Assembly (NCBI RefSeq): GCF_022440845.1
Contig: NZ_JAKNTO010000001.1
Location: forward strand, 3,224,001 to 3,288,000
Length of the DNA stretch: 64,000 bases
Source of the DNA: Ruminococcus sp. OA3
Lineage (GTDB): Bacteria; Bacillota; Clostridia; Lachnospirales; Lachnospiraceae
Reading direction: 5' to 3'
Part shown: one piece after another, positions 1 to 62,657 of the stretch
Layout: each line of letters begins with the position of its first letter
Position numbering within the stretch: position 1 is the first letter of the stretch
The notes under the pieces: generated by a model
Told to the model about the DNA's origin: nothing
Database searches by the model: none
What the model saw: only the letters and a program-made list of their open reading frames with translations
Translations under genes and position numbers: made by a program

Positions 1-679
1 TCTTATCCTGCAAAAATGCCAGCGGCTGCTCCATCATATTCCAGTACTCCAGAAATCCTAAAACCACTGCAGACAGAATGCCCGGCGAACCCAGCGGAAT
101 CCCGATTTTCAAAAAAACCGCCAGCTCACCGGCACCGTCAATCTTAGCCGCTTCTATCAATTCTCTCGGTATCGCAGTAAAACTGCGGTATATGAGAAAT
201 ACCGGAAATGTAGAAAAAACTGCCGGCAGGATGACTGCCGCATGGGTATTCATCAGGTTCAGCCCATCCAGTACCAGATAGGAGGGAAGCATTGTCACCT
301 GAAACGGAAGCAACATTAAAATGACGTAGAGTGTAAACAACAGTTTCTTTCCTTTAAAGCGAAATGCTGCAAACGCCCATGCTGCCGGAACCGCAAACAC
401 CAGCTGTCCCGCGAGGATTGTTCCTACAATTTTCATCGAGTTCCAGAACACCGTAAAAAAGTCCGGTGTCCAGATCAGCAGTTTCACAAAATGAATCAAT
501 GTCGGATACAGCGGAAAAAGCTTCCATTCTATCATGCCGCCGGTTCCGTTTAACACTGGCGCCAGGCTTGCCGCCAGTTCATTTTTGCTTTTCAGAGAAC
601 CCAGGACTGTGAGAATCACCGGCATACAGATGATCACTGCTGATAACACCAGCCCCAGCTTCCAACAGATCTTTTTCAA
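1..679 (-). CDS. Carbohydrate ABC transporter permease (MalG type), 3' end cut by window
   Basis: Inner-membrane permease of a sugar-type ABC importer (CUT1, MalG-like); it would pair with the permease encoded just upstream. About 226 codons are visible and the gene runs off the left edge. Translation begins at a TTG at 679, chosen because AGGAGG lies 7 nt upstream (687-692) and no ATG fits. The start KKICWKLGLVLSAV is a first membrane helix. The EAA loop, where the ATPase docks, reads ELIEAAKIDGAGELAVF near residue 180. The start lies 2 nt after the previous permease's stop, so the two are translationally coupled. The family is clear; the substrate cannot be told. Confidence 0.9.
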   Translation of the reverse strand, partial: MKKICWKLGLVLSAVIICMPVILTVLGSLKSKNELAASLAPVLNGTGGMIEWKLFPLYPTLIHFVKLLIWTPDFFTVFWNSMKIVGTILAGQLVFAVPAAWAFAAFRFKGKKLLFTLYVILMLLPFQVTMLPSYLVLDGLNLMNTHAAVILPAVFSTFPVFLIYRSFTAIPRELIEAAKIDGAGELAVFLKIGIPLGSPGILSAVVLGFLEYWNMMEQPLAFLQDK

Positions 680-8574: not shown

Positions 8575-10134
8575 TTACTGTTCATTCGCAAGACCCATCA
8601 GTTCCTCGCGGAAGATTCTCTCATCCATCAGCTTCAGGTCATCTGCAATCTGTGGTTTGAATTCCATCTGATCCAGAATCTGTGTCTGAAGGTCGATACC
8701 AGGTGCGATTTCGATCAGCGTAACACCTTCCGGACGGAGCTCAAATACACAGCGCTCTGTGATATACAGAACAGGCTGTTTTACTTTGTTTGCATAATCG
8801 CCCGAGAACGTGATCTGTTCAACCTGTTTCACAAACTTTTTCTTTGCACCTTCCTGCGTAATCACCAGCTTGCCGTCTTTACACTCTGTCTTCAGGCCCT
8901 TGGCTGTCATCGTACCGCAGTACACAACACTCTTCGCATTCTGTGTGATATCGATAAATCCGCCTGCACCTGCCAGACGTGTTCCAAATTTAGATACGTT
9001 CAAATCTCCGTTCGGAGCTGTCTCAGCCAGACCAAGAAACGCGATATCAAGTCCTCCTCCCTGATAGAAGTCAAACTGTACATTATGCGGCAGTATGGAC
9101 ATGGAGTTTGCCGCAGCGCCGAACTGTGTTCCGCCATACGGAACTCCTGCGATAGAACCAGCCTCCACTGTCAGCGTCATACTGTTAGAAATGCCTTCCT
9201 CTGCGGCAACATTTGCGATTTTTTCCGGTGCCCCTGTTCCCAGATTGACAATGGCATCCTTCGGAAGCTCCATCGCTGCCCGGCGGGCAATAATTTTTTT
9301 CGCGTCCATGGGAATCGGAGGAATCGCATCAACAGGAATACGGAATTCGCCAGTGAGCGCTCCATCGTAAGGCATGCCGAGACACTGCATGTTCTCCTCA
9401 TCTGTACCGATCACAACAGAATCCACATAAATTCCCGGGATGGCCACGAGTTTTGGATCCAGAGAACCTCCCTGAACGATCTTTTCAACCTGAACGATCA
9501 CTTTACCGCCGGAATTTTTACATGCCTGCGCCATCGCTGTAACATCAAGCGGTCCGATCTCTCTATGTACGGTACAGTTTCCGAACTCATCACAGTAAGA
9601 ACCGCGAAGGAATACCACATTGATCGGAAAACCTTTATAAAGAAGGCGCTCTTCGCCGTCGATATTGACGAGTTTTACAAGATCCTCTTTTGTGCAGTCG
9701 TTGAGTTTTCCGCCTTCGTTACGCGGATCGGCAAATGTATACAGTCCTACATGCGTAATCGTGCCAATATTATGTGCCGCAATATCACGATACATGTGGG
9801 ATATGACACCCTGCGGCAGGTTGTATGCCTCGATCTTATTATTCAGGGCCAGTTCGCCCAGTTTTGGTGCCCGGTCCCAGTGCCCGCCGATCACACGTTT
9901 AACCATGCCTTCATGACCGTAATGGTCTCCTCCTGTCCCATCCCGATGCCCCTGTCCGGCTGCAAAAAACAGTGTCAGATCCTTCGGATGTCCCGTTTCC
10001 AGGAAACGTTTCTCAAGTGCTGTCGAAAGCGCCTCCGGACATGCACAGCTTACGAAACCGCCAGTCGCGATCGTGTCGCCGTCCTGAACCTTGAGCGCAG
10101 CCTCTTCAGCCGTGATAATACTTACCTTTTTCAT
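8575..10134 (-). CDS. Acyl-CoA:acetate/propionate CoA-transferase (family I)
   Basis: 519-aa single-chain CoA-transferase with fused alpha and beta halves, as in propionate CoA-transferase Pct and E. coli YdiF. It transfers CoA between short-chain acyl-CoAs and free acids such as acetate, propionate, butyrate or lactate. The N-terminal half contains DGDTIATGGFVSCACPEAL; the second half contains NLGTGAPEKIANVAAEEG and LTVEAGSIAGVPYGG, where the catalytic glutamate is expected. An earlier ATG at 10143 touches the AGGAGG; the ATG at 10134 has 9-nt spacing and is chosen. It lies downstream of a butyryl-CoA transferase but has its own promoter. Exact substrate is uncertain. Confidence 0.88.
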   Translation of the reverse strand: MKKVSIITAEEAALKVQDGDTIATGGFVSCACPEALSTALEKRFLETGHPKDLTLFFAAGQGHRDGTGGDHYGHEGMVKRVIGGHWDRAPKLGELALNNKIEAYNLPQGVISHMYRDIAAHNIGTITHVGLYTFADPRNEGGKLNDCTKEDLVKLVNIDGEERLLYKGFPINVVFLRGSYCDEFGNCTVHREIGPLDVTAMAQACKNSGGKVIVQVEKIVQGGSLDPKLVAIPGIYVDSVVIGTDEENMQCLGMPYDGALTGEFRIPVDAIPPIPMDAKKIIARRAAMELPKDAIVNLGTGAPEKIANVAAEEGISNSMTLTVEAGSIAGVPYGGTQFGAAANSMSILPHNVQFDFYQGGGLDIAFLGLAETAPNGDLNVSKFGTRLAGAGGFIDITQNAKSVVYCGTMTAKGLKTECKDGKLVITQEGAKKKFVKQVEQITFSGDYANKVKQPVLYITERCVFELRPEGVTLIEIAPGIDLQTQILDQMEFKPQIADDLKLMDERIFREELMGLANEQ

Positions 10135-10182
10135 TGTTGTCATCCTCCTCTTATAGGAATTTTAAAACATTTCACTATGTTA

Positions 10183-10242
10183 ATATTTTATCGTATTTGC
10201 TCTAATTTGTAAACGAATAATTGTGCAAATACGATAAAATAT
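10183..10242. promoter_or_regulatory. Promoter with perfect 18-bp inverted repeat (putative operator)
   Basis: ATATTTTATCGTATTTGC at 10183-10200 is repeated as its exact reverse complement at 10225-10242, with a 24-nt spacer. On the minus strand a good sigma-A promoter lies within it: TTTACA (10208-10213), 17 nt, TAAAAT (10185-10190), about 45 nt before the CoA-transferase ATG. One arm covers the -10 and part of the spacer; the other lies upstream of the -35. This is the arrangement of a repressor or activator operator pair. The cognate regulator is unknown. Confidence 0.7.
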
Positions 10243-10243
10243 G

Positions 10244-10271
10244 GCAACTGTTCAGGACGGTCTGGCAGTTA
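10244..10271. repeat. Partial copy of intergenic palindromic repeat
   Basis: The sequence CAACTGTTCAGGACGG followed shortly by CAGTTAC resembles one arm of the palindromes at 39401-39447 and 44639-44690. It lies in the gap after the butyryl-CoA transferase gene. The second arm is incomplete. Confidence 0.4.
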
Positions 10272-10288
10272 CAAAATATGGTACATCT

Positions 10289-11635
10289 CTACCGTCTGTT
10301 GCTGGCTTTCCAGATATTCATCTTTTCTGCCTCTTTGATCAGCTGATCGCGGAAATCCGGATGAGCTATGGAGATGAGCGCTTCACACCTCTGCCATGTA
10401 GAAAGACCTTTGAGGTTTACTTTTCCATACTCTGTCACAAGGAAATGTGTGTTTGTCCTGGTATCCGTTACGATTGAGCCTGGGTCCAGGACAGGTAGTA
10501 TCCTGGACTGCAGCTGTCCGTTTCTGTCAGTAAACGTGGAGGAACAGCAGATAAAGCTCTTGCCGCCTTTTGACAGGTATGCACCCAGTACGAAATCCAG
10601 CTGTCCGCCTGCACCGCTGATATGTTTGACACCGGCGGATTCAGCATTGACCTGACCAAACAGGTCGATATTCACCGCATTGTTGATGGACATAAAATTA
10701 TCCAGTGCCGAAACTGTCCGCACATCATTGACATATCCAACGGAGGCGCTGTACATTTCCGGATTATTGTCAATATAATCATATAACTCTCTGCTGCCCG
10801 CTGCAAACGCATAAACCTGCTTTCCAGTGTGGATGTTTTTCTTTCTTCCGTTGATCTTTCCTGCTTTTGCCATCTCAACATATGCATCAACATACATTTC
10901 AGTATGTACGCCGAGATCCTTCAGATCTGATTCGGCAATCAGCTTGCCGACTGCATTCGGCATACCGCCGATTCCGAGCTGGAGACATGATCCGTCAGAG
11001 ATTTCTTCCAGGATATATTCTGCAACTTTTTTATCGACCTCCGTCATCGGCGCCTGGCTTCCGCCGAGTTCCGGCACAAGCGGATTCTCGCCGTGTACGA
11101 TCATATCTACATCTGTAATATGTACGCTGCTTGTCTCATCACCGTAGGCAACCGGCATATTCTCATTTACTTCCACGATCACGATCTTCGATGTCTCACA
11201 GATTGCTTTCAGATGAGATGCGCTCGGTCCGAAGTTAAAAAATCCATGGACGTCCATAGGTGCAACCTGAATCATTGCCACATCCGGTTTACAGTCCATA
11301 TCATAATAATAACGCGGTAGTTCTGAATAGCGAATCGGTCCGTAGTATGCAAATCCCTGTGCGATCGCCTTTCTCTCAATTCCGGTCATATGCCAGGAAT
11401 TCCAGGAAAAATGCTCTTTTACGTTCTCCACTTTGAAAATTTCGGGAACCTGTAGCAGGATACCGCCTCTTACCTTGACATCACTGAGCTCACCCGCCCG
11501 TTTTGCCAGCGCGGCATCCAGCGCAACAGGAGTTGCTGTACTCCATGCATAATCTACCCAGTCACCGGATTTTACTACTTTGACCGCTTCCTCTGCCGTC
11601 GTTAATTTCATTTCATACTGTTTTTGTATGTTCAT
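10289..11635 (-). CDS. but: Butyryl-CoA:acetate CoA-transferase
   Basis: 448-aa member of the acetyl-CoA hydrolase/transferase family. In gut butyrate producers this enzyme makes butyrate from butyryl-CoA and acetate. Segments such as [42 protein letters not shown] and [18 protein letters not shown] match the Roseburia-type But enzyme as I know it. The catalytic Glu is in [14 protein letters not shown]. The start is ATG 11635, with GGAGG 5 nt upstream; an in-frame TTG at 11647 is rejected. A 4-hydroxybutyrate CoA-transferase is the main alternative. None of the butyryl-CoA synthesis genes (thl, hbd, crt, bcd) is in the window. Confidence 0.85.
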
Positions 11636-11761
11636 GATAGCCTCCAATCACATAATCCTCATAATCTTGTAAAAAGTGCGGAAAACCGCCGTTTTCTTTC
11701 GTTGCCAGTATACCATAGAAACACTTTTTCCCGCAACCCGGTTTTTCAAAACAGCGGACCT

Positions 11762-11806
11762 AAACACAGGCAAAGAGCAGCAAGTCCCTGCCCTTTGCCT
11801 GTGTTT
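11762..11806 (-). terminator. Long hairpin ending the Dlt-like operon
   Basis: A 14-bp perfect outer stem (AAACACAGGCAAAG with its complement) plus an inner GCAG/CTGC stem begins in the stop codon of the last operon gene. The following T-tract is short (GTGTTT), so termination is likely but not certain. Confidence 0.65.
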
Positions 11807-12767
11807 AATTCAATACGTCCGCCAGTTCACTGCTGAAGACTTTTGCGCTGTCACCATACATATGGCCTTCATAATCCGCAAATTCATCCAGTGTCCACGC
11901 TTCTTTTGTCATACCCGGTTTATTAAAGTTGTAATATGCCACATCAAACTGATCCGTCAGCTGATCAAAATACTGGAATGCATTGTCATACAGGGACTGG
12001 TAATCTCTGTAAGTGACATCCGGTATGGGTGTCGTAATCGCAACAAACTCAATTCCCCTTGCTTTGCAGAATTTTGCCAGCCTGACAAAGTATTTCAGGG
12101 AATTCTTCTCCATATGTGTGAGTGACCACGGTTCATAGTCCAGCTGTTTTTTTACCTCTCCGGTACGTTTCCGATACATAAAGCCGTTCGGCTGGAACGC
12201 CTGCCCCGCGGTATCAAATGCCTGTACACCGTATGTCTTATAATCTTCTGTCTGTTTTCCTTCCACGACACCGCGGATATTAAGCGCCTGTTTGCGGTAT
12301 GCAAACCATGGAAACAGTGTAAACCGGAAGTCGGCTTCCATTGCCTTTGCAAACAGGTACTCCACCTTCGTCTTTGACAATGGCATTTCTCTGTAGATCA
12401 GTGTGAAATCCGCCTGCTGCGTATCCCTGACCGTCCAGTAACTGGGATCGAATTCATAGATGACCCGCTTCGGAACATGATGCTCACACATCAGTTTCAG
12501 CATATAATAAGAGTCCCTCGTATACTCTCCGCCGCGGCACAGATTAATGCTCTTTCTTCCGGTTATTGCATCGACTGTCTCCGGGTCAATCCCCGCAAAC
12601 CCATGGGAAGTCCCCAGAAACACATCGTCATACTTTTGTGTCGTGATGTTATGGATATCGATGCGCACATAATTATTGGGGATCAGCAGATAATTCAGCA
12701 CGCTGTTTACCGCAATGCAGACAACCAGTATCATCACCGGAATCATCACTCTTTTAAAACTGCGCAT
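11805..12767 (-). CDS. DltD/SGNH-like membrane-anchored protein
   Basis: Last gene of the Dlt-like operon, 320 aa. An N-terminal membrane segment (RVMIPVMILVVCIAVNSVLNY) is followed by an extracytoplasmic domain with FLGTSHGFAGID near residue 50 and EGHMYGDSAKVFSSEL near the C-terminus. Both match the Ser and His blocks of SGNH/DltD/AlgX-type proteins acting with MBOAT acyltransferases. It probably accepts or positions the acyl group outside the membrane. Start ATG 12767 has AGGAGG 8 nt upstream; a longer frame from 12800 lacks an RBS. It overlaps the MBOAT gene by 14 bp. It is not a close DltD and the acceptor is unknown. Confidence 0.8.
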   Translation of the reverse strand: MRSFKRVMIPVMILVVCIAVNSVLNYLLIPNNYVRIDIHNITTQKYDDVFLGTSHGFAGIDPETVDAITGRKSINLCRGGEYTRDSYYMLKLMCEHHVPKRVIYEFDPSYWTVRDTQQADFTLIYREMPLSKTKVEYLFAKAMEADFRFTLFPWFAYRKQALNIRGVVEGKQTEDYKTYGVQAFDTAGQAFQPNGFMYRKRTGEVKKQLDYEPWSLTHMEKNSLKYFVRLAKFCKARGIEFVAITTPIPDVTYRDYQSLYDNAFQYFDQLTDQFDVAYYNFNKPGMTKEAWTLDEFADYEGHMYGDSAKVFSSELADVLN

Positions 12768-14292
12768 AGATAAAACCTCCTGCCATCGATGGATCTGCAC
12801 CCAGCAGCGGAAGTGACAGAACCAGTATCAGAACTATGCCGAAACGTACAACGCACGGGCTCTGAAGCACAACTGCCGCAACATTTGTCCCACATTCCTG
12901 CCGATAGCTTACAAAAAACAGCAGCACGCAGCCAGCCAGCACGATCCCGAGAAAGATCAGACACACATTTGGATTGCCATCCGCGAGTGCCAGGAAGCCC
13001 GGCCGGAGCAGCGGAGACAGATCAAATTTTGTCACCGCATTTTTCATCATCGCAAACGCCTGTCCCAGATCACTCCCCCGGTCCAAAAACCAGCTGATGT
13101 TGACAAGCAGAAAGGTACGCAGTATCTGAAATACATGAAACCATCGTGAATCATTCCGAATATTGCAGGCCTTCTTCCATTTTCTGTAATTCCCTGCCAT
13201 CAGTCCGCTGAATGCGATGATCACGCCATTATACAGACCGTATGCAATGAATTTCCACGCAGCGCCGTGCCAGATGCCGACAACCAGAAAGACGATGATA
13301 TTCGCCAGACAGATGGGCAGCGTCCTCCCGATACTTTTTCCGAATATTTTTTTTGCCCGTCTGGTAAAATGTCCCATCCATTTGGAAAGTGATACCGGGT
13401 AAAAAATGTAATCCTTCATCCAGGTCCCGAGTGTAATATGCCAGCGGTGCCAAAAATCGGTGATTGATACGGCAAAAAAAGGCCGCTTGAAGTTTTCTTC
13501 CAGACGGATGCCGAACAGTGACGCAATTCCGATGACAACATCCATTCCCCCTGAAAAATCCCCATAAAGCTGCACAGTATACCCGAGTACACCGAGAATC
13601 GCCATGCCGCTGTACGCCTGAGAATTTCCAAATATCACGTCCACAAACATCGCAGCATTATCGGCAATAACCATTTTCTTAAAAAATCCCCAGAGGATCC
13701 TGAGAAGTGCTTCCTGCGTCCGCTGCATGTCAAAAGCATGCTCCGCAAATAATTCTTTTGAGAGTGCGGAAAACCTGCTGATCGGTCCCTGCAGGATCTG
13801 CGGAAAAAAGGACACAAAAAGCGCAAATTTAAACGGGTTTCTCTCCGGTTTGCATTTCCCCCAGTATACATCCAGCAGATAACCCATTGACTGGAATGTA
13901 TAGAAAGAAATCCCAAGCGGCAGCAGCAGATTCATAAGCTGGAAGTCCGTGTGAAACACTGCATTGATATTGCCGATCGCAAAGTTCGTGTATTTCAGAA
14001 GTGCCAGCATGCCAAAGTTTAAAAACAGCGTAAGGACAAGTACACTTCGTTTCAGGCTGCGGACCTTCTTTTTATCTGCCTCTCCCTGGTCCAGCGCATA
14101 CATTCTGCGAGCCGCAAGGTACGTGGTTGCTGTTGAAAACAACAGGAAAGCTACAAGTTTCACTCCTGCGGACAAATAGTAGATATAGCTGAATCCCAGC
14201 AGCCACTGCCACTGATATTTCATCGGAATCAGATAATATCCTGTAACTGCTATTGCAGTAAAAACTAAAAACTGCAGTGAGATGAGTGACAT
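12754..14292 (-). CDS. MBOAT O-acyltransferase (DltB/AlgI-like)
   Basis: Polytopic membrane protein of 512 aa with about ten hydrophobic segments. The MBOAT block is intact: PLGISFYTFQSMGYLLDVYWG, FFPQILQGPISRF, ITDFWHRWHITLG and the conserved His in FLVVGIWHGAAWKFIAYGLY. Members such as DltB and AlgI move an acyl group from a cytoplasmic carrier across the membrane onto a cell-surface polymer. GAGGA lies 7 nt before the ATG and the carrier-protein gene ends 11 nt upstream. In this operon the donor is expected to be an aminoacyl-carrier protein. Confidence 0.94.
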   Translation of the reverse strand: MSLISLQFLVFTAIAVTGYYLIPMKYQWQWLLGFSYIYYLSAGVKLVAFLLFSTATTYLAARRMYALDQGEADKKKVRSLKRSVLVLTLFLNFGMLALLKYTNFAIGNINAVFHTDFQLMNLLLPLGISFYTFQSMGYLLDVYWGKCKPERNPFKFALFVSFFPQILQGPISRFSALSKELFAEHAFDMQRTQEALLRILWGFFKKMVIADNAAMFVDVIFGNSQAYSGMAILGVLGYTVQLYGDFSGGMDVVIGIASLFGIRLEENFKRPFFAVSITDFWHRWHITLGTWMKDYIFYPVSLSKWMGHFTRRAKKIFGKSIGRTLPICLANIIVFLVVGIWHGAAWKFIAYGLYNGVIIAFSGLMAGNYRKWKKACNIRNDSRWFHVFQILRTFLLVNISWFLDRGSDLGQAFAMMKNAVTKFDLSPLLRPGFLALADGNPNVCLIFLGIVLAGCVLLFFVSYRQECGTNVAAVVLQSPCVVRFGIVLILVLSLPLLGADPSMAGGFIYAQF

Positions 14293-14303
14293 CGCCCGAT
14301 CCT

Positions 14304-14534
14304 CTAACTTTCCTTCTGTAATCTTACTACCATATTCCAGAGCGCCTGGGCTGAATTAAAATTTTCCGGAATAATGTCAGCCGGTGTAACAGAAATATCA
14401 AACGCATCCTCCAGTTCACTGACGATGGAAAGAATCGCAAAGGATTCCAGAATCCCGTCATCAATTAAAGTAGTACAATTTTCATAGTCTTCTCCCGGTT
14501 GTATTTCCTCTAAGATTTCTAATATTTTTTCCAT
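14304..14534 (-). CDS. Acyl/peptidyl carrier protein (DltC-like)
   Basis: 76-aa acidic four-helix carrier protein. The phosphopantetheine attachment serine is in DDGILESFAIL (about residue 31), close to the DltC form rather than the DSL of fatty-acid ACP. It should carry the amino acid activated by the adenylase two genes upstream and hand it to the MBOAT protein. Its start overlaps the decarboxylase gene by 16 bp, which argues for coupled translation and joint function. Confidence 0.92.
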   Translation of the reverse strand: MEKILEILEEIQPGEDYENCTTLIDDGILESFAILSIVSELEDAFDISVTPADIIPENFNSAQALWNMVVRLQKES

Positions 14535-15727
14535 ACTGCTTCTCCTTCTCTTTCTGAATTGATCACATCCGTCGGGTCATCCCCGCGCACAAGCCTCACA
14601 CCATCCTGTTCTGAACAAAAAAACACCTTCGGCAAATCTCTGCTTAAAAACAGATGGATGCCCTCTGTCACGGAATATGCCCCTGTACGTTGAAACACGA
14701 GCAGATCTCCCAGGCAAGCTCCCGTAAGCGGAAGCTGTTTTACCAGCACATCCCCCACAGTACAGAGTGATCCGCAGATATTGTAAAGCTGCTCCTTACC
14801 GTGTCTATGTTCACCCAGATGTTCAAAAAATGGGATTTTCATCGCCATCGACTGACCATAATAATTTAAATGATGGATTCCTCCATCGACAATACAGTAG
14901 TTCTGTCCTTTGTTCTGTTTCATATCCACAATAGCCGTCACATACTCTCCACATGATGCTGCCAGATATCTGCCCATCTCAAGGGTAATCTGCCCATCAA
15001 ACGTCAGGCTATTCAAAATTCCGGCAAATTCTGCAAGCATTTCTTTCTGGTCTGACTGTCCGTCTTTCTGAAAGTACGGGATAAAAAAGCCCGGACCATA
15101 CTCAATATGTTCTGCGTGATAACCATACTGCTCTTCTAAGTCCGTCACCAGTTCATCCAGATACCGAAGCTCTTTTTCAATCCTGTCAAGCCTGTGCTTC
15201 TGGGTGCCGGAGTAAAACTGCACCCCCTCGATACAGACATGAGGATACCGGTTGCGGGTTTCAACGATCTCTCTTATCAGCATCTCATCCATACCGAACT
15301 GGTTTCCGCTGGTCACGCGCAGCAGTACTCTCGCAAACAGTCCCATGTTTCCTGCACACTCTTCTATCATCTGCAGCTGCTGAAAAGATTCTGCCGTAAA
15401 CGTATTACTCCCGGTCCATCTGGCCATCACAGCTTCAAGATCTCTTTTTTCCTTATAAACTCCCGACAGCACTACCTTCTTCATGGGAATCCTCAGCCGC
15501 TCACAGATACGCAGCTCTCCGGGAGAGCACACTTCAAATCCGTCGACGCAGGAATGCACTGCACGGACAAGGAACGGATTTGCCTTCATTGCATAACAGA
15601 TTCGGACCCGCTCTCCCAGAATCTCTTTCACTTCCCGGACCTGTGCCCGGACCTGATCCAGGTTGAAGAGATAAAACGGAGTCCCGCATTCATCTGCAAT
15701 CTTTTGAATCATCATCTGATGGGTCAT
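14519..15727 (-). CDS. Fold-type III PLP-dependent decarboxylase (LysA/BtrK-like)
   Basis: 402-aa enzyme of the diaminopimelate/ornithine decarboxylase family. The PLP lysine is in CYAMKANPFLV (about residue 48). Later motifs include YSGTQKHRL, EYGPGFFIPYF, MGRYLAASCGEYVTAI, a Gly-Cys motif ICGSLCTVGDVLV and GAYSVTEGIHLFLSRDLP. Ordinary LysA would sit with lysine genes; here it lies between an adenylase and a carrier protein, overlapping both. BtrK of butirosin biosynthesis is a relative that decarboxylates an amino acid while bound to a carrier protein. A similar role here is inference. An amino-acid racemase or free amino-acid decarboxylase are alternatives. Confidence 0.85.
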   Translation of the reverse strand: MTHQMMIQKIADECGTPFYLFNLDQVRAQVREVKEILGERVRICYAMKANPFLVRAVHSCVDGFEVCSPGELRICERLRIPMKKVVLSGVYKEKRDLEAVMARWTGSNTFTAESFQQLQMIEECAGNMGLFARVLLRVTSGNQFGMDEMLIREIVETRNRYPHVCIEGVQFYSGTQKHRLDRIEKELRYLDELVTDLEEQYGYHAEHIEYGPGFFIPYFQKDGQSDQKEMLAEFAGILNSLTFDGQITLEMGRYLAASCGEYVTAIVDMKQNKGQNYCIVDGGIHHLNYYGQSMAMKIPFFEHLGEHRHGKEQLYNICGSLCTVGDVLVKQLPLTGACLGDLLVFQRTGAYSVTEGIHLFLSRDLPKVFFCSEQDGVRLVRGDDPTDVINSEREGEAVWKKY

Positions 15728-17274
15728 TCCTGCACCTCCAGTCTCCGCCGGAGTTCCCCCCGGTCGATCTTTCCATTCTTCGTCAGCGGCATCTCATCCA
15801 CCTTCTCAAACAGATTGGGGATCATAAATGCCGGAAGCTTCTGCCTCAGTTCTCTCACCAGCGCCTTCACTTCAGGGCGGCCCAGATAACACGCCCCAAT
15901 TTTGTTGCTGTCTTCCAGATAGATGACACAGGCCCTCTCGACTCCTTCTGATTTTTCCATGGCTGTCTCGATCTCTCCAAGCTCGATCCTGTGTCCCATA
16001 TGTTTGATCTGAAAATCTTTTCTGGACGCAAAGCAGAGGTCACCGTCCGCATTATAAAACGCAAGATCTCCGGTCCGGTATATCATCTGCGGATACGCCG
16101 TATTGAGCGGATTTTTCACAAAAGCTTTTGCCGTCTGATCCGGATTCCCGTAATATCCAAGCGCAAGCGCCGTTCCGGCCACACAGAGTTCCCCTTTTTT
16201 GAATGGTTCTGTTACCAGCTGATCGTTATCATCCAGCAGCATTACCGTTTCATTTGAAAACGGCTGGCCGATCGGCAGATGTTCGCCCGGTTCGAACTCG
16301 CGCTCAACTTTGTAGTACGTACAATTGCAGGTAATCTCCGTCGGTCCGTACAGATTGACATACATTGCATCCGGCAGTGCTCTTTGCCACTGGTTCAGAT
16401 GTCCCACCGGCATCACTTCCCCGCTGAAAAGTACTTTATTCACATTTCCCGGTATTTTATAGTCAAATCCTTTCAGCGTTGTGATAATACAGAGTGCAGA
16501 GACTGCCCAGATCAGCGTCGTGACCTGTCTCTCTTCCAGAAAATCCAATAGCTTCGTCGGAAAAGAAAAATATTGTTTTGGGATCAGTTCCAGTGTTGCC
16601 CCCGTCTTCAGTGACGTGTAGATATCCTTCACTGAAACGTCAAAATCAAGCGGCGCCTGACATCCAAACACGTCATCCGCTGTAAATCCAAACGTCTCTG
16701 TAAACTCATCGATGAAATCAAGAACGGATCTGTGACCTACCAGCACCCCTTTGGGAACTCCGGTGGAACCGGAGGTGAAAATACAGTACAGTGGATCCAG
16801 ATCTGTACTCTGTTCCCGCACCCTTTCAAGGATTCCAGCCTTCACCTCAGCGTCCGCCAGCTCTTCTATATACAGAATCTGATCATTTTGTATGATTTTT
16901 TCCAGCGCTTTCCCATGTTTTTTATCCGTAATCACGGCAGGCTGCCCCAGCGTGTCCAAAATCTGACGGATACGCGCCGCAGGCTGCCGGCTGTCCAGCA
17001 TCACGTAGAAGTTCCCGCTGTATACAATTCCAAAAAACACAGTGAGCACCGCTGCCGATTTTTCCATAAAAACAGCGATCGGCTGTCGGTGCTCATCACT
17101 ACGTGCTGCCAGTGCCGTCCCAATCTGCTGGCTCTTCTTGAGCAGCTGCCGGTATGTCAGTGAATCCTTCTCGTCCTCGACCGCCGTCTTATCCGGCTTC
17201 TTTTTCGCAGACTCTTCAAGATACTGCAGCACATTTCTTCTGTGAGATGATATTTGAATATAATATTGTTCCAT
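15724..17274 (-). CDS. Amino-acid adenylation enzyme (DltA-like)
   Basis: 516-aa stand-alone adenylation domain that would activate an amino acid with ATP and load it onto the carrier protein. Core motifs are complete: TSGSTGVPKG (A3), NLYGPTEITCN (A5), YRTGDLAFYN (A7), KHMGHRIELGEIE (A8) and LTKNGKIDRGEL (A10 with catalytic Lys). Overall pattern follows DltA. First gene of the operon; its stop overlaps the decarboxylase start (ATGA). The specificity pocket includes LDFDVSVKDIY and LIWAVSALCI, but I cannot read the substrate from it. AAGGAG lies 10 nt before the ATG. Confidence 0.9.
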   Translation of the reverse strand: MEQYYIQISSHRRNVLQYLEESAKKKPDKTAVEDEKDSLTYRQLLKKSQQIGTALAARSDEHRQPIAVFMEKSAAVLTVFFGIVYSGNFYVMLDSRQPAARIRQILDTLGQPAVITDKKHGKALEKIIQNDQILYIEELADAEVKAGILERVREQSTDLDPLYCIFTSGSTGVPKGVLVGHRSVLDFIDEFTETFGFTADDVFGCQAPLDFDVSVKDIYTSLKTGATLELIPKQYFSFPTKLLDFLEERQVTTLIWAVSALCIITTLKGFDYKIPGNVNKVLFSGEVMPVGHLNQWQRALPDAMYVNLYGPTEITCNCTYYKVEREFEPGEHLPIGQPFSNETVMLLDDNDQLVTEPFKKGELCVAGTALALGYYGNPDQTAKAFVKNPLNTAYPQMIYRTGDLAFYNADGDLCFASRKDFQIKHMGHRIELGEIETAMEKSEGVERACVIYLEDSNKIGACYLGRPEVKALVRELRQKLPAFMIPNLFEKVDEMPLTKNGKIDRGELRRRLEVQE

Positions 17275-17310: not shown

Positions 17311-17338
17311 AGTATACCACAGGAATATCACGATACAA
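17311..17338 (-). promoter_or_regulatory. Promoter of the Dlt-like operon
   Basis: On the minus strand TTGTAT (17333-17338) and TATACT (17311-17316) are 16 nt apart, about 35 nt upstream of the adenylase ATG. Confidence 0.55.
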
Positions 17339-49688: not shown

Positions 49689-52436
49689 TTATCTGGGCAC
49701 TTCAACCATGGTATATGCTTCCACCACATCCAGTTCCTGGATTTCATTGAATCCTTCAAATACAAGTCCGCATTCATAACCAGATTTCACTTCTTTTACA
49801 TCGTCTTTAAAACGTTTCAGGGATGCGAGCTGACCTTCAAAGATCTGAGTTCCTTCACGGGTGATCCTGACGGAGCAGCCTCTCTGGAAGATACCGTCCA
49901 GCACATAGCTTCCCGCAATATTTCCAACCCCTGATGCCTTAAAGATCTGGCGTACCTCTGCGTGGCCGATCACTTTTTCTTCAAATATAGGATCCAGAAG
50001 ACCTTTCATCGCTGCTTCCACATCTTCTATCGCCTGATAAATGACACGGTACAGGCGGAGATCAACACCTTCCTGTTCCGCTATCGCCTTAGCGGTCGCA
50101 TCTGGACGTACATTGAAGCCGATAATGATCGCATTGGAAGCTGAAGCCAGCGTTACATCCGATTCGTTCACGGCACCTACTCCGCCGTGCACGATCTTGA
50201 CTACCACTTCATCATTGGAGAGCTTGGTAAGACTCTGCTTCACAGCCTCCACAGATCCCTGCACATCAGCCTTCACAACAATACCCAGCTCTTTCAGGTT
50301 GCCTTCTTTGATCTGGCTGAACAGATCATCCAGAGACATTTTCGCTTTTGTCTCTTCCAGAAGACGGTTTCTGTTTTCGGATACAAAGGTAGCTGCGAAA
50401 TTCTTGGCTTCCTTATCATTTTCTGTGGCAACAAGAACCTCCCCTGCATTTGGCACATCACCAAGTCCAAGGATCTCAACAGGCGTAGACGGTCCTGCCT
50501 CTTTTACTCTTCGTCCCTTATCATCCATCATTGCCCTGACTTTACCAGAACATGCACCTGCTGCGATAAAATCTCCTACATACAGAGTTCCCTTCTGTAC
50601 CAGGATCGTTGCAACCGGTCCTTTTCCCTTATCCAGTTTGGCTTCAATGACAAGTCCTCTGGCTTTGCGCTTTGGATTTGCCTTCAGTTCACATACCTCG
50701 GAAGTCAGCAGGATCATCTCAAGCAGTTCATTGATACCTTCCTGTGTGTGGGCAGATACCGGAACAAAAATGGTACTTCCGCCCCAGTCCTCCGGAATCA
50801 GCTCATACTCTGACAATTCCTGTTTTACCCGCTCTACATTTGCACTCGGTTTATCGATTTTATTAATCGCTACGATAATTTCAACTCCTGCCGCTTTGGC
50901 ATGGTTGATCGCTTCAATCGTCTGTGGCATAACACCGTCATCCGCTGCCACCACCAGGATCGCAATGTCTGTCGCATTTGCACCACGCATACGCATTGCA
51001 GTGAACGCTTCATGACCCGGTGTATCCAGGAATGTGATCTGCTGTCCGTCAACATCTACTGTATAAGCGCCAATATGCTGTGTGATGCCTCCGGCCTCTC
51101 TGTCTGTCACCCTCGTGTTCCGGATCGCATCCAGAAGAGACGTTTTTCCATGGTCAACATGACCCATAACACAGACAACCGGCGGTCTGGAAACAAGCAT
51201 GCTGGTATCTTCTTCTTCCTCTTTCAGAAGTTCTTCTATTACGTCAACTTTTACTTCCGGTTCTGCGATGATATCGTACTCGAGCGCAATCTCCTGAGCC
51301 TTCTCGAAATCAATCTCATGATTAACTGTAACCATGATTCCCTGCATAAACAGTTTCTTAACGATAACAGACGGCTGCATTTTCATTTTGTCAGCGAGCT
51401 CACGAATCGTCATTTTCTCCGGAAGTATAATTTCTTTGATTTCTTCCTTCTTCTCCTCTTTCGGCTGCTGATGCACCGGTTTCTGAAGAGCCTTCGGAAT
51501 TCTTGACTGCTGGCGGCGTCCCTGATTCGGGCGTTTGCTTCCGCCTTTTTGACGGTCATTCGTAAATTTATCTCCGCGCTGTGCTACTTTATCTTTTTCT
51601 TTATCTTTTCTCACATCACGGGACGGTTTCTGTACAAGTGGCGTATCCCCCGTCTCTCCCTGTGGTTTCCGTGCAGTCGTACTGCGGCGCGCGTCCTGCG
51701 GTCCCCTGCGGAAATCTCTTCCGTCCTTGTCTCCCTGCGGTCTGCGGCTGTCATTACTTCTTGGACCCGGTCTTCCCTGACCACTCTGGCCCGGTCTTCC
51801 CTGACCACTCTGGCCTGGTCTTCCCTGACCGCCCTGGCCCGGTCTTCCCTGACCGCTCTGGCCCGGTCTTCCCTGACCACTCTGGCCTGATCTTCCCTGT
51901 CCACCTGAACCCGGTCTTCCCTGACCGCTCTGGCCCTGACGCTGCTGGCCCTGTGTACCACCGGATGCATACCGCTGGCCCTGACCGGAACTCTGACGGT
52001 TCTGCTGATTCTGTTCTGTCCTTCCCTGAACACCGCTGTTCTGCGCAGAACGCTGCTGTCCCTGGCCGGACTGCTGACCCTGATTCTGACTCTGCTGACC
52101 CTGATGCTGAGGTTTGGACCCCTGTGCCGGGCGTGCTGAACCGGATCCGGATTTTCCTCCCGAACGGCTCTTTCCATAGTTTTTCCCCTCCGGCGTCGTT
52201 GCATTCTGCGGCCGGAACACCTGGATAATATTGGATTTCTTTTTAGGTTTTCCCTCGTTGTTGTTTTGATTTTCTTCTTTCTTATCAAATGTATCTCGCA
52301 ATAATTTCTCCTCCGCTTCCTCTAAAGAACTCATATGACTTTTTACTTCCACACCACGGCTTATTAAAAAGTTCATGACTTCTCTGTTACTTTTTCCTAT
52401 CTCTTTTGCAATTTCGTGTACTCTGATTTTTGGCAC
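49689..52436 (-). CDS. infB: Translation initiation factor IF-2
   Basis: 915-aa GTPase that recruits fMet-tRNA. It starts with GTG 52436 (AGGTGG upstream) and [20 protein letters not shown], the IF2N domain. A long Gln/Gly/Arg-rich linker (about 60-330) includes seven tandem GQSGQGRP-like octapeptides. A second IF2N follows ([20 protein letters not shown]). The G domain has [22 protein letters not shown] and NKIDKPSA near residues 425-540, then domains II-IV. Third gene product after nusA with ylxR and ylxQ between. Confidence 0.98.
51769..51936. repeat. Seven tandem 24-bp repeats within infB
   Basis: Seven consecutive 24-bp units, each starting GGTCTTCCCTGACC (plus strand), with small changes between units (the sixth is most divergent). 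On the coding strand each encodes an octapeptide of the GQSGQGRP type. The unit length keeps the frame, so copy number can vary without harm. Confidence 0.9.
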
Positions 52437-52462
52437 TCTACCACCTGACCTTTCTGCCTTTC

Positions 52463-52768
52463 CTATGCATTTAGCTGCTGTTCAATGGCCTGCCCCAGAT
52501 TCTCATCCAGAATTGCTAATGATGCCCGAAACTCCTTTCCGATCGCTCTTCCAAGTTCTGTCTTCTCTCCAAAGAAGTAACATGGCACTTTATAATACAG
52601 ACACATATTCTGAAACTTTTTTTTCGTATTTGCCGACGCTTCGTCAGCTACGATCACCAGCCTGGCTTTTCCGGTTTTGACTGCCTTTTCCGTAGAGAAC
52701 TCTCCGCTTGCTACTTTTCCGGCCTTCATTGCAAGGCCCATCAATGATACTGTTTTATTTCTGTTCAA
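52463..52768 (-). CDS. L7Ae-family ribosomal-like protein YlxQ
   Basis: 101-aa L7Ae/L30e-fold RNA-binding protein (YlxQ) always found between ylxR and infB in Firmicutes. Motifs: [21 protein letters not shown] and [17 protein letters not shown]. Start is TTG 52768 with AAGGAG 10 nt upstream and a 14-bp overlap with ylxR. Precise role is not settled. Confidence 0.93.
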
Positions 52769-53021
52769 TCGTATCCAGCTCCTTTTTAAGCGCTTCGTAG
52801 ACTTCTGTCGGAATGGCCATTTTAAGCGAACGTTCCAATCCCTTATTATTCACTGCCTTTTCAAAGCACTCCTTTGAAAAGCACAGATAAGCTCCGCGTC
52901 CGTTTTTCTTACCGGTCGTATCCAGGATGATTTCTTCTTCTGTAGTCCTCAGGATGCGCATCATATCTTTTTTGCTCTTCATTTCCTGACATCCGGTGCA
53001 TTTACGCATCGGCACTTTCAT
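52755..53021 (-). CDS. YlxR (DUF448) RNA-binding protein
   Basis: 88-aa protein. It has MRKCTGCQEMKSKKDMMRI, the CxxC-containing start of YlxR, and TGKKNGRGAYLCFSKECFEKA. It is a small nucleic-acid-binding protein of the nusA operon; in B. subtilis it is reported to affect transcription of other genes. The start at 53021 lies inside the end of nusA (20-bp overlap), so translation is coupled; an ATG 12 nt later is also possible. Confidence 0.93.
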   Translation of the reverse strand: MKVPMRKCTGCQEMKSKKDMMRILRTTEEEIILDTTGKKNGRGAYLCFSKECFEKAVNNKGLERSLKMAIPTEVYEALKKELDTIEQK

Positions 53022-54174
53022 CTTTTTCGCTGTATTCTTCGTACTCATTTTCACCGTCTTCATATTCATTTACGTCAACATCTTCTTCAAACTCATTCAC
53101 ATCTTCGTCATATTCTTCAAAGATTTCAAAGTCACCTGCTTCTCTCGCCTGTGTCTCACTCTTGATATCGATCTTAAATCCGGTCAGTCTGGCGGCAAGT
53201 CTGGCATTCTGTCCTTCTTTACCTATCGCCAGTGACAGCTGGTAATCCGGCACGATCACTTTTGCCGCCTTCTCATCCGGATCCGCCATTACGGAAATAA
53301 CTTTCGCCGGACTCAGTGCATTTTCGATCAGGAATGCCGGATTGTCATCCCAGTTGATGATATCGATCTTTTCGCCGCGCAGTTCTTCTACAATCGCGTT
53401 GACTCTGGCACCATTCATGCCTACACAGGCTCCGACCGGATCTACATCCGCATCATTCGACCATACGGCAATCTTTGTCCTTGAACCGGCCTCCCTTGCA
53501 ATGCTTTTAATCTCCACGATTCCTTCTCTGACTTCCGTCACCTCTGATTCAAACAGGCGCTTCACAAGTTCCGGGTGTGTCCTGGAGACCTGGATCTTTG
53601 GTCCTTTCGGTGTATCCTTTACCTCCAGAACATATACTTTGATTCGCTCTGTCGGTTTGAAGTGCTCTGTTTTGACCTGTTCGGATTCGTTCAGCATTGC
53701 ATCCACTTTTCCGAGGTTAATGCTGATGTTTTTACCCATGTTGCGCTGTACAATACCTGTCACAACATCTTTTTCTTTCTCAAAATATTCGTTGTACAGT
53801 ACCTTGCGTTCTTCTTCCCTGATTTTCTGCAGAATCACATTCTTTGCATTCTGTGTGGCAATACGCCCGAACTCCTTGGATTTTATCTCCACATTGACGA
53901 TATCACCGAGTTCATATTTGGAATCTATCATTTTTGCATTTGCCAGACTGATCTCCATCACAGAATCTTCTACCTTTTCAACAACCGTCTTTTCCGCATA
54001 AACGCTGAAATTGCAGGTTTCAGGGTCAATATACACTTTTACGTTATCTGCTTTTCCAAAATGGTTCTTACAGGCCTGAATCAGTGACTGTTCAATCGCT
54101 TCCAACAGGGTATCCTTACTGATGTTTTTTTCTTGTTCCAGAATGTTTAGCGCTTCCAGTAACTCTGTGTTCAT
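53002..54174 (-). CDS. nusA: Transcription termination/antitermination factor NusA
   Basis: 390 aa. N-terminal RNA-polymerase-binding domain (MNTELLEALNILEQEKNISK), S1 domain (VTGIVQRNMGKNISINLG), two KH domains (VDPVGACVGMNGARVNAI, LSLAIGKEGQNARLAARLTG) and an acidic tail of about 45 residues in place of the proteobacterial AR repeats. Second gene after rimP; no tRNA lies between. Confidence 0.97.
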   Translation of the reverse strand: MNTELLEALNILEQEKNISKDTLLEAIEQSLIQACKNHFGKADNVKVYIDPETCNFSVYAEKTVVEKVEDSVMEISLANAKMIDSKYELGDIVNVEIKSKEFGRIATQNAKNVILQKIREEERKVLYNEYFEKEKDVVTGIVQRNMGKNISINLGKVDAMLNESEQVKTEHFKPTERIKVYVLEVKDTPKGPKIQVSRTHPELVKRLFESEVTEVREGIVEIKSIAREAGSRTKIAVWSNDADVDPVGACVGMNGARVNAIVEELRGEKIDIINWDDNPAFLIENALSPAKVISVMADPDEKAAKVIVPDYQLSLAIGKEGQNARLAARLTGFKIDIKSETQAREAGDFEIFEEYDEDVNEFEEDVDVNEYEDGENEYEEYSEKDESADA

Positions 54175-54195
54175 TTTTTCTTTTTTCCTCCTAAT

Positions 54196-54663
54196 TTAAA
54201 AATCGAATGCCAGACGAATCAATGCGATTTCACCTTTTTCAAATGTCCTCTCACTTCCATCTTCCATCTCAATAGTCACGCTGTTATTATCATATGCGGT
54301 CAAAATCCCATAGAATTCCTTTTGTTTATCAATTGCCCGATACGTTCTTATCTCCAGCTCTTTTCCCATACTTCTGGCATAGTCTTTTTCTTTTTTCAAC
54401 GGCCTGCCCAGGCCCGGTGAACTCACCTCCATGATATACGTATCTTCGATATAATCTTCCTGATCAAGTTTTTCGCTGAAAGCTCTGCTGACAGCTTCAC
54501 AGTCATCAATTGTAATGCCGCCTTCCCTGTCAATATAAGCTCTCAGATACCAGGTGCCCCCTTCTTTTACGTACTCCACATCTACCAGTTCAAATCCCTT
54601 TTCACTGACGATGGGCTCCAGCATCACTTCTGCTTTCTGTTCATAGTTTTCCTTTTTACTCAT
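54196..54663 (-). CDS. rimP: Ribosome maturation factor RimP
   Basis: 155-aa 30S assembly factor. Family pattern: ELVDVEYVKEGGTWYLRAYIDREGGITIDDCEAVSRAFSEKLD then YIMEVSSPGLGRPLKKEKDY (key motif VSSPGLxRPL). It is first in the rimP-nusA-ylxR-ylxQ-infB-rbfA-DHH-truB-ribF operon. Upstream lies the parC terminator; I could not assign a confident promoter in the 50 bp between. Confidence 0.97.
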   Translation of the reverse strand: MSKKENYEQKAEVMLEPIVSEKGFELVDVEYVKEGGTWYLRAYIDREGGITIDDCEAVSRAFSEKLDQEDYIEDTYIMEVSSPGLGRPLKKEKDYARSMGKELEIRTYRAIDKQKEFYGILTAYDNNSVTIEMEDGSERTFEKGEIALIRLAFDF

Positions 54664-54715
54664 GCATCATCCCTGCCTTATCGGATTATGTTTCCTTTAT
54701 ATGGTCTTTACATCG

Positions 54716-54743
54716 TAAAAAAGCGGGCTTTTTCAAGCCCACT
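54716..54743 (-). terminator. Terminator of parE-parC
   Basis: GTGGGCTT/AAGCCCGC 8-bp stem with one G-T pair and a 4-nt loop, then TTTTTTACG on the minus strand; about 70 nt after the parC stop. Confidence 0.85.
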
Positions 54744-54811
54744 CTCATTCAGTAATTTATTTAATTCTTGTTTATTGTAGCACTTCTTATTATAAAATGC
54801 AAGGCGTTTCT

Positions 54812-57055
54812 TTAAACACGGATTTTTATGCCTTTCGTATCACGTTTTCCCAGTTTCAGCCTGTTCAGCGTCACTTCCTTTTCATGGTACGAAATGGTGT
54901 AATCCATCCGGCTTTCGATCAGGTAGCCCTGCTCGATCTGATCCTGTTCCGCCAGACGCATTCCGCGTACACCGATCGCCGTCTTTTTCTTATCCGGCAC
55001 CTCTTCCTTCAGGAACCGAAGGAAATATCCTTCCCTGCTCTGCAGCACGACGTAATCCATCGTATCCGCCGGCTGTACAAATACTACTTCATCGCCGTCC
55101 GCCAGCTTTGTCGCGGCGATCGTGCGTTTGGCGGCATCGAATTCCGTACCTTCCACCTGTTTTAGCATGCCGTTTCTTGTGATAAACAAAAGCTTCTGCC
55201 TCTTGATTTCTTCCAGACATCCAAGATACAGAATCGTCTCCTGGGCGGTACTGTAATTTCCAAAATTATCGATCGGCACACCCTTGTCCCTGAATTTACC
55301 GTACGGCAGATCCAGCACCTTCACCATGTGCATTTTTCCCTGTTCCGTGAAGATGCAGAGTTTATCCGTATTGCTGCACAGGAACGCATACTGATAGTCC
55401 TTGACCGCAGCCTCCTGGTTACGCTCAAACACAGTTTTGTCCACTGTTTTGATATAACCGAAGCGGTCCATCAGGATGCAGACTTCCATCTCTTCGATCT
55501 TATTTTCCTCGTAGACAGCTTCCTCAGCATTTTCTATCACCGTTTTACGTCTCTGCCCGTATTCCTTTTTGACCGCGTCCAGTTCTTTGATGATCACATC
55601 CGCCATGGCATCATAGTTATTGAGGATATTTTCATATGCGGCGATATTTGCCAGTGTCAGATCATGCTCCTTCATCAGTGCTTCGATCTCCAGCCCGATC
55701 AGCTTATACAGACGCATTTCCAGAATCGCCGTTGCCTGTCTGATCGTAAAACGAAGCTTTGCCGCCGCCCGCTCCGATGTTTTGGTCTTAAACCGGATAC
55801 CTTCGGTAATCCCCATTGTCAGACAATCCTTCACCTGTTTCTGACTCTTGCTGCCGCGGAGAATTTCGATGATCAGATCAATCACATCACACGCTTTGAT
55901 GAGTCCTTCCTGAACTTCCTTTTTGTCCAGTTCTTTTGCCAGAAGATTCTGGTATTTTCTGGTTGCCACTTCAAACTGAAAATCCACATGGTGTTCAATG
56001 ACTTTCTTAAGACTCAGTGTCTCCGGTTTCCCGTCTGCAACGGCCAGCATATTGACACCGAAAGTATCCTCGAGGCGCGTTTTCTTATAGAGCATGTTGG
56101 TCAGATTGTCAGCGTCTGCTCCCTTTCTGAGCTCCAGTACGATACGGATGCCTTCTTTCGATGACTGGTTGGAGATGTCTACGATATCCGTTGTCTTCTT
56201 AGTCTCCACGAGCTGTGCCACATCATTCAGAAACTTTCCAATGTTTGCACCTACCATCGTATAGGGAATCTCTGTGATGACCAGACTCTGCTTTCCGCCT
56301 TTTCCCCTTTCGATGTCCACTTTTCCTCTGATGCGTACTTTTCCGCTTCCTTTTTCATAGATGGAGTACAGATCATCTTTATTGACAACGATGCCTCCTG
56401 TCGGAAAATCCGGTCCCTTGATATACCGCATCAGACCCTTTACCGTAATGTCATTGTTCTTCATGTACGCTTTGACACCGTCGATCACTTCCCCGAGATT
56501 ATGGGGCGGAACGCTGGTCGCCATGCCGACTGCGATACCATCCGCACCATTGATCAGAAAATTTGGCACACGGACAGGAAGTACTTCCGGTTCTTTTTCC
56601 GTTTCATCAAAGTTTGGCACAAAATCCACGACATCCTTGTCCATATCACTCAGATAGACTTCCTGGGTGATCTTCTGCAGACGCGCCTCCGTATAACGCA
56701 TGGCGGCTGCACCGTCCCCCTCGATCGATCCAAAGTTTCCATGACCGTCCACCAGGGGCTGTCCCTTTTTAAAATCCTGCGCCATCACAACCAGCGCTTC
56801 ATAGATCGAGCTGTCCCCGTGCGGATGATATTTACCCATGGTATCGCCGACGATACGGGCACATTTACGATAGGGTCTGTCATACCGTATGCCGAGCTCA
56901 TACATATCATACAGGGTTCTTCTCTGCACCGGCTTTAATCCATCCCGGATATCAGGAAGTGCTCTGGCCACGATTACACTCATCGCGTAATCGATGTAGG
57001 ATTTCTGCATGACTTCTGAATATTCTGTTTTTATGATCTGTTCTTTTTCACTCAT
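54812..57055 (-). CDS. parC: DNA topoisomerase IV subunit A
   Basis: 747-aa cleavage/religation subunit. Active-site Tyr is in AAAMRYTEARL near residue 118, with PDIRDGLKPVQRRTLYDMYE at the start. The C-terminal domain is shorter and lacks a clear GyrA-box (QRRGGKG), the reason for calling ParC rather than GyrA. It decatenates sister chromosomes. It follows parE by 10 nt. The location away from dnaA/recF supports ParC. Confidence 0.87.
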   Translation of the reverse strand: MSEKEQIIKTEYSEVMQKSYIDYAMSVIVARALPDIRDGLKPVQRRTLYDMYELGIRYDRPYRKCARIVGDTMGKYHPHGDSSIYEALVVMAQDFKKGQPLVDGHGNFGSIEGDGAAAMRYTEARLQKITQEVYLSDMDKDVVDFVPNFDETEKEPEVLPVRVPNFLINGADGIAVGMATSVPPHNLGEVIDGVKAYMKNNDITVKGLMRYIKGPDFPTGGIVVNKDDLYSIYEKGSGKVRIRGKVDIERGKGGKQSLVITEIPYTMVGANIGKFLNDVAQLVETKKTTDIVDISNQSSKEGIRIVLELRKGADADNLTNMLYKKTRLEDTFGVNMLAVADGKPETLSLKKVIEHHVDFQFEVATRKYQNLLAKELDKKEVQEGLIKACDVIDLIIEILRGSKSQKQVKDCLTMGITEGIRFKTKTSERAAAKLRFTIRQATAILEMRLYKLIGLEIEALMKEHDLTLANIAAYENILNNYDAMADVIIKELDAVKKEYGQRRKTVIENAEEAVYEENKIEEMEVCILMDRFGYIKTVDKTVFERNQEAAVKDYQYAFLCSNTDKLCIFTEQGKMHMVKVLDLPYGKFRDKGVPIDNFGNYSTAQETILYLGCLEEIKRQKLLFITRNGMLKQVEGTEFDAAKRTIAATKLADGDEVVFVQPADTMDYVVLQSREGYFLRFLKEEVPDKKKTAIGVRGMRLAEQDQIEQGYLIESRMDYTISYHEKEVTLNRLKLGKRDTKGIKIRV

Positions 57056-57065
57056 ACACTACCTC

Positions 57066-59006
<1,941 letters not shown>

Positions 59007-62456: not shown

Positions 62457-62465
62457 AAGACCTCC

Positions 62466-62521
62466 TTATATACATACATTTGTATGTATATAAGAATATC
62501 ATAAAATCATCCTCTGGTCAA
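62466..62521 (-). promoter_or_regulatory. tetR promoter with perfect 13-bp palindrome
   Basis: On the minus strand TTGACC (62516-62521), 17 nt, TATTCT (62493-62498). Directly after the -10 lies TTATATACATACA, TT, TGTATGTATATAA (62466-62493), a perfect 13-bp inverted repeat. Repressor bound here would block the start site. Confidence 0.8.
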
Positions 62522-62657
62522 CATTTGAATCTTCATCCGTTCTGCGTACAGTTAGCCGCATCAATGGCAATCACCAGAAGCAAAAACTCATCCCAGCACT
62601 ACTATCAAAAACATTCCATATCTTGGCATTGAATTTATTTTTTTAGATGTACAGGTT

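Follow-up and report, generated by a model that had tools for sequence, protein, structure and literature searches.

A conserved Dlt-like operon with a BtrK-like decarboxylase in Ruminococcus sp. OA3, a probable cell-surface acylation system

Closest described systems

In Gram-positive bacteria, charge, resistance to antimicrobial peptides and recognition by the host are governed by the D-alanylation of teichoic acids. A five-gene operon on a 64,000-nucleotide stretch of the Ruminococcus sp. OA3 genome (contig NZ_JAKNTO010000001.1, positions 3,224,001 to 3,288,000; hereafter the window, whose own numbering is used throughout) resembles the Dlt system responsible (DltA, DltC, DltB, DltX, DltD). 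Shared features are a stand-alone adenylase, a presumed carrier-bound acyl donor, an MBOAT protein with the catalytic histidine and a DltD-like SGNH protein. However, the adenylase is not DltA by the curated cut-off and has a different specificity code, the operon contains an additional pyridoxal phosphate (PLP) decarboxylase, and there is no DltX gene, its motif being part of a longer MBOAT protein (512 amino acids, against 385 in a true Dlt locus, L125).

Each of these departures has a counterpart elsewhere. In DltX the acyl-accepting tyrosine sits in a C-terminal FXYXXF motif, and other polymer-acylating MBOAT proteins such as PatA carry FXYXXF on their own C-terminus, have no carrier protein and use acyl-coenzyme A (acyl-CoA) (PMC12148441). 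Like the PatA/PatB type of MBOAT-SGNH O-acylation, the operon has the C-terminal FXYXXF on the MBOAT protein and an SGNH partner. Unlike that type, described as carrier-less and acyl-CoA-fed (PMC12148441), it has a carrier (85 of 91 loci), an adenylase and a decarboxylase.

Two antibiotic pathways provide parallels for the decarboxylase. In butirosin biosynthesis BtrK converts glutamyl-BtrI to 4-aminobutyryl (GABA)-BtrI, that is, it acts on carrier-bound glutamate; an ATP-grasp ligase loads BtrI. The window operon shares with BtrK/BtrI a PLP decarboxylase of the alanine-racemase (AR) fold, the LCT motif and a carrier protein, but the butirosin product enters an antibiotic and the window decarboxylase family lacks the loop before QFGM. 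In the VinN/VinL/VinO system of vicenistatin biosynthesis the adenylase loads 3-methylaspartate and decarboxylation depends on the thioester. The route proposed here would likewise have an acidic amino acid loaded by an adenylase and decarboxylated on a carrier by a PLP enzyme, although the vicenistatin product primes a polyketide synthase and not a membrane acyltransferase. Finally, the exosortase A locus is a surface-polymer locus that pairs an adenylating ligase (TIGR03098) with an AR-fold PLP decarboxylase (TIGR03099). TIGR03099 is also the top NCBIfam match of the window decarboxylase, but the score of 203 bits is far below the curated cut-off of 478, and no MBOAT/SGNH operon is known at exosortase A loci.

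Judged from its genes and motifs, the operon appears to be a Dlt-like system in which the donor is a Dlt-type carrier, the shuttle is fused to the MBOAT protein as in Pat systems, and the decarboxylase is of the BtrK/VinO type. No description of such a system was found in the open-access papers searched, most of the subscription literature lying outside that search.

A conserved five-gene operon and its decarboxylase

Five open reading frames (ORFs) were verified on the minus strand at 11805-17274. The adenylase is a stand-alone protein of the amino-acid type (516 amino acids, 15724..17274), and its gene overlaps by 4 bp that of the AR-fold PLP decarboxylase (402 amino acids, 14519..15727). 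The latter overlaps the carrier protein gene (76 amino acids, 14304..14534) by 16 bp. After a gap of 11 bp follows the MBOAT acyltransferase (512 amino acids, 12754..14292), which overlaps the SGNH/DltD-like gene (320 amino acids, 11805..12767, start ATG at 12767) by 14 bp. The original prediction, made from the letters of the window, had described five tightly coupled genes with 4-, 16- and 14-bp overlaps, and its coordinates and overlaps all agree with the ORF check.

Decarboxylase relatives were sought in two sets. Among 61 related genomes 12 contained one (40-48% identity, except for one close congener), and in a species-genome collection at least 467 relatives were confirmed, of which the best 80 were kept for the locus counts. 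A total of 91 loci was examined, several incomplete ones stopping at a contig edge. The decarboxylase was accompanied by the adenylase in 88 loci, the carrier in 85, the MBOAT protein in 71, the SGNH protein in 70 and all five genes were together in 67. The median spacing between adenylase and decarboxylase was -4 bp (85 loci), so the overlap is itself conserved. Besides the order in the window, the arrangements MBOAT-SGNH-adenylase-decarboxylase-carrier, adenylase-decarboxylase-SGNH-carrier-MBOAT and adenylase-carrier-decarboxylase-MBOAT-SGNH were found; the gene set is maintained although its order shuffles. Conservation of the neighbourhood with carrier and MBOAT had been put forward as a check on the decarboxylase, and it was borne out. 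Recurrence of the set in 67 of 91 loci, with the adenylase-decarboxylase overlap kept, is far beyond chance. Where the loading genes stand alone, four of the five genomes checked have a full-length MBOAT protein elsewhere with the tail FIYANF, FIYAQF or FIYAGF, and in three of those four the distant MBOAT gene adjoins an SGNH gene. The hosts are chiefly Lachnospiraceae, and Coriobacteriaceae are also represented. The operon is real, conserved and widespread, and the chemistry considered below is plausible. At two loci (L166:8713-12057 and L100:5741-8560) the decarboxylase ORF precedes the adenylase and is much longer (about 940-1114 amino acids), perhaps through fusion to an unassigned domain.

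The window decarboxylase contains the Pfam domains Orn_Arg_deC_N and Orn_DAP_Arg_deC, the PLP lysine K48 and the catalytic cysteine C322 within a GSLCT-D motif. Its best relative in the PDB is BtrK (5e-39, against 7e-25 for the best diaminopimelate (DAP) decarboxylase), and in a profile comparison BtrK scored 202 bits and DAP decarboxylase 162 bits. The comparison with BtrK drawn in the original prediction was therefore apt. An AR-fold decarboxylase nearest to BtrK with an adjoining carrier gene is the pattern of carrier-dependent decarboxylases such as BtrK and VinO, and the window enzyme may be one of them.

The LysA model TIGR01048 also matches the protein (179 bits), as would be expected if the enzyme were a second LysA placed by chance among Dlt-like genes, or if it decarboxylated carrier-loaded meso-DAP to give a lysyl ester. 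However, the score is below the cut-off of 297.9. In a tree of 41 sequences, including 26 of the operon-type decarboxylase family and 13 LysA proteins of Lachnospiraceae, the 26 operon-type proteins were separated off by a branch with full support (100/100), and the 13 LysA proteins fell apart from them. Moreover, the LysA signature GSLCENxD...GAHG is replaced by GSLCTxxD...GAYS; LCT..D and GAY are common to operon-type decarboxylases, BtrK and SbnH, and the CE(N/S) of DAP decarboxylases is absent. Each of the 14 genomes checked, the window's genome included, has a LysA of its own, whether or not it also carries an operon-type decarboxylase. The clustering inside LysA that had been named as grounds for refutation did not occur. 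LysA or DAP-to-lysyl chemistry was rejected on the tree, the motif and the separate LysA, and conserved linkage to the carrier also argues against it, making this the least probable of the alternatives considered. SpeC, also suggested for the tree, has a different fold and is not a useful comparison.

An ordinary D-alanylation operon, with the fold-III enzyme an alanine racemase-like supplier of D-alanine, would agree with the Ala_racemase_N domain that Pfam also reports in the decarboxylase and with the Dlt roles of all the other genes. However, the C-terminal domain and catalytic cysteine are of the decarboxylase type and rule out a racemase role. The adenylase is matched by TIGR01733 above the cut-off (340.6 bits; AMP-binding and AA-adenyl-dom in Pfam/NCBIfam), but the DltA model TIGR01734 scores it at 306 bits, far under its cut-off of 559.85. 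No true DltA above that cut-off was found in the whole window genome, and only one of 61 relatives has one. The specificity code, D-V-K-W-L-S-L-C-N, differs at most positions from DLMSLCTVA in the DltA of L125. A true Dlt operon was rejected on the cut-off and code of the adenylase, and we consider a D-alanylation role highly improbable.

Proposed route and choice of substrate

A PLP alpha-decarboxylase requires a free alpha-carboxyl group. An on-carrier route therefore requires aspartate or glutamate to be loaded through the side chain, as VinN does with its substrate. The original prediction had the operon load an amino acid, and loading is retained here, but DltA-style loading through the alpha-carboxyl would be incompatible with decarboxylation on the carrier. 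The operon probably serves to acylate the cell surface in a Dlt-like manner, with decarboxylation taking place on the carrier; we infer substrate, timing, acyl group and acceptor polymer as follows. The adenylase would activate an acidic amino acid, more likely aspartate than glutamate, at its side-chain carboxyl and load it on the carrier. The decarboxylase would strip the free alpha-carboxyl on the carrier, giving a beta-alanyl (or 4-aminobutyryl) thioester. Through the MBOAT protein the cationic group would cross the membrane and reach Y509 at the C-terminus of that protein, and from there the DltD-like SGNH protein would pass it via a serine to an extracytoplasmic polymer. More tentatively, the whole may be an undescribed, widespread surface-charge system in which side-chain-loaded aspartate becomes an on-carrier beta-alanyl group and then a wall-polymer ester replacing D-alanine, with the adenylase-decarboxylase pair recruited in one lineage to make beta-alanine for pantothenate instead of PanD. 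If the proposed route is right, these gut bacteria would decorate their surface with a cationic group made on a carrier, a chemistry unreported in the open-access papers searched.

The specificity code was read by alignment to the specificity positions of GrsA (235..331). The code DVKW[LMI]S[LVI]CN was present in 83 of 86 adenylase homologues adjoining a decarboxylase. Such near-invariance points to a single conserved substrate that bears an amino group (Asp235) and possibly another carboxylate (Lys239); the code is consistent with side-chain activation but does not amount to proof of it. It also bears on the order of the steps. The decarboxylase could act first on the free amino acid, with the adenylase then loading finished beta-alanine or GABA and transfer proceeding unchanged, and step order is not legible in sequence. 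However, an amino-binding Asp235 together with an invariant Lys239 would suit a substrate that has both an amino group and another carboxyl. BtrK, the nearest relative to have been characterised, uses a carrier-bound substrate, and VinO needs the thioester. Decarboxylation of the free acid is therefore unlikely.

Glutamate passing to a GABA ester through the same machinery, by BtrK-type chemistry, is a possible though somewhat unlikely variant. BtrK is the nearest solved structure, and some nonribosomal peptide synthetase domains that activate glutamate also have Lys239. However, GABA thioesters are prone to lactam formation, against which the butirosin pathway protects with a glutamyl group, and the operon has no protecting enzyme. 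A beta-alanyl thioester avoids lactam formation.

A further locus bears on this choice. In one genome, G119, the adenylase-decarboxylase pair lies directly after panB-panC-coaBC (L203:10237-16299), with no carrier gene nearby and no close MBOAT gene; panB, panC and coaBC were named from their sequences, and Pfam confirmed PanC. PanC was found in 13 of 40 genomes, 11 of which have PanD, and G119 is the only one of nine genomes with PanC and the decarboxylase that is without PanD. The simplest reading is that this pair makes beta-alanine from aspartate, possibly replacing PanD. A pan-linked pair in a PanD-less genome could also mean that free beta-alanine is made, as decarboxylation ahead of loading would have it. 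The linkage, a single case, favours aspartate to beta-alanine over glutamate, and we regard aspartate as about twice as likely. PanC and PanD are both absent from the window's own genome, where the window pair therefore does not serve pantothenate.

Several observations weigh against the proposed route. The pan linkage occurs in a single genome, the nearest decarboxylase relatives of G119 are in ordinary operons, and a search for further pan-linked loci in about 400 family genomes returned four nearest relatives that carry the ordinary operon. Adenylase, decarboxylase and carrier also occur together, with no MBOAT gene, in a few exopolysaccharide clusters (L094:1-19167 and L024:476-8868), and the loading genes may thus feed other kinds of transfer as well. 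The tie between code and decarboxylase is also looser than raw counts imply. Among 150 family genomes picked by adenylase irrespective of decarboxylase (73 operon loci), 26 of the 34 loci with the window-type code had the decarboxylase, compared with 3 of the 39 with other codes (Fisher p = 1e-9, raw), but the association was not significant in independent pairs, the MBOAT tree having only 5-6 independent gains or losses. Lys239 also occurs in operons without a decarboxylase. The link is suggestive only, given so few independent changes and this wider occurrence of Lys239. Moreover, eight operons with the window-type code have no decarboxylase nearby, and either the undecarboxylated acid is also usable or the decarboxylase is encoded elsewhere.

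The L024 exopolysaccharide locus also encodes an asparagine-synthase-like protein similar to the exosortase-A amidotransferase. Among the sampled relatives a true DltA is a rarity (1/61), and Dlt-like operons whose adenylases have other codes occur often. A broad class of these operons (L116, L118-L124, L151-L188) has adenylase, carrier, FXYXXF-tailed MBOAT and SGNH genes, no decarboxylase and diverse codes. In one code group of this class, SMxWLALDI, the amino-binding Asp235 is absent, suggesting that the acyl groups handled there have no amino group.

Transfer genes and flanks of the operon

The carrier matched the DltC model NF003464 weakly (1.6e-8, 34.5 bits against a cut-off of 68). Its S31, in LESFAIL, is at least 95% conserved in 81 homologues, as expected of the phosphopantetheine serine of a DltC-like carrier. 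The MBOAT protein matched PF03062 (7e-18) and the DltB model TIGR04091 (174 bits, below cut-off). Its catalytic H342, in GIWHG, and Y509 were invariant in 20 homologues. Y509 lies in the C-terminal motif FIYAQF (12757..12774, minus strand), which matches the FXYXXF of DltX and PatA, and a tyrosine occupied the shuttle position in all 70 full-length MBOAT homologues beside a decarboxylase. The invariant histidine and the C-terminal FXYXXF together are those of MBOAT-SGNH acyl-Tyr shuttle systems. No gene for a separate DltX microprotein lies within the operon, and with the motif on the MBOAT C-terminus none is needed. DltX had indeed gone unseen in the original prediction, which gave Dlt roles to all genes but the decarboxylase; no transfer part is missing. 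The DltB of L125 has no FXYXXF tail. The operon suggests that a carrier-fed system can use an MBOAT-fused acyl-Tyr shuttle, which the current model has only in acyl-CoA-fed systems. The residue after the shuttle tyrosine was alanine in 20 of 23 decarboxylase-bearing operons and 7 of 33 others; as a marker of the acyl group it was dropped, only five independent contrasts being available.

The SGNH protein, with one N-terminal membrane helix, had no match among Pfam or NCBIfam families. Its AlphaFold2 model (pLDDT 92.4, from an alignment of 20 homologues) found the DltD structures 3bma and 6pfx as top Foldseek matches. S54, D298 and H302 are invariant in that alignment, giving a Ser-His-Asp set on a DltD fold, and the protein is accordingly modelled as DltD-like. 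The acceptor could instead be a secreted small molecule or lipid of specialised metabolism, adenylase-decarboxylase-carrier triads being known from natural-product pathways. However, the conserved set contains no peptide synthetase, polyketide or export genes, and MBOAT and SGNH proteins with an FXYXXF tail follow the pattern of envelope-polymer acylation. A surface polymer is the preferred acceptor, and a small molecule or lipid is improbable.

Directly after the last stop codon, 3' of the SGNH gene, lies a 19-bp hairpin (11762..11806, minus strand; fold -32.8 kcal/mol, z -5.89), which is the probable transcript end. Upstream of the adenylase, a weak extended -10 promoter-like site (TTGTAT, 16 nt, TGgTATACT; 17311..17338, minus strand) was picked out by eye and is below the threshold of the promoter scan. 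A PAS histidine kinase gene and CoA-transferase genes flank the operon, neither belonging to the conserved gene set. Two genes of the CoA-transferase family occupy 8575-11647, directly downstream of the operon and outside the conserved neighbourhood. Elsewhere in the window, the GC content falls to 32% at 62001-64000 and the AT skew is strongly negative at 50001-58000, both unlike the remaining window.

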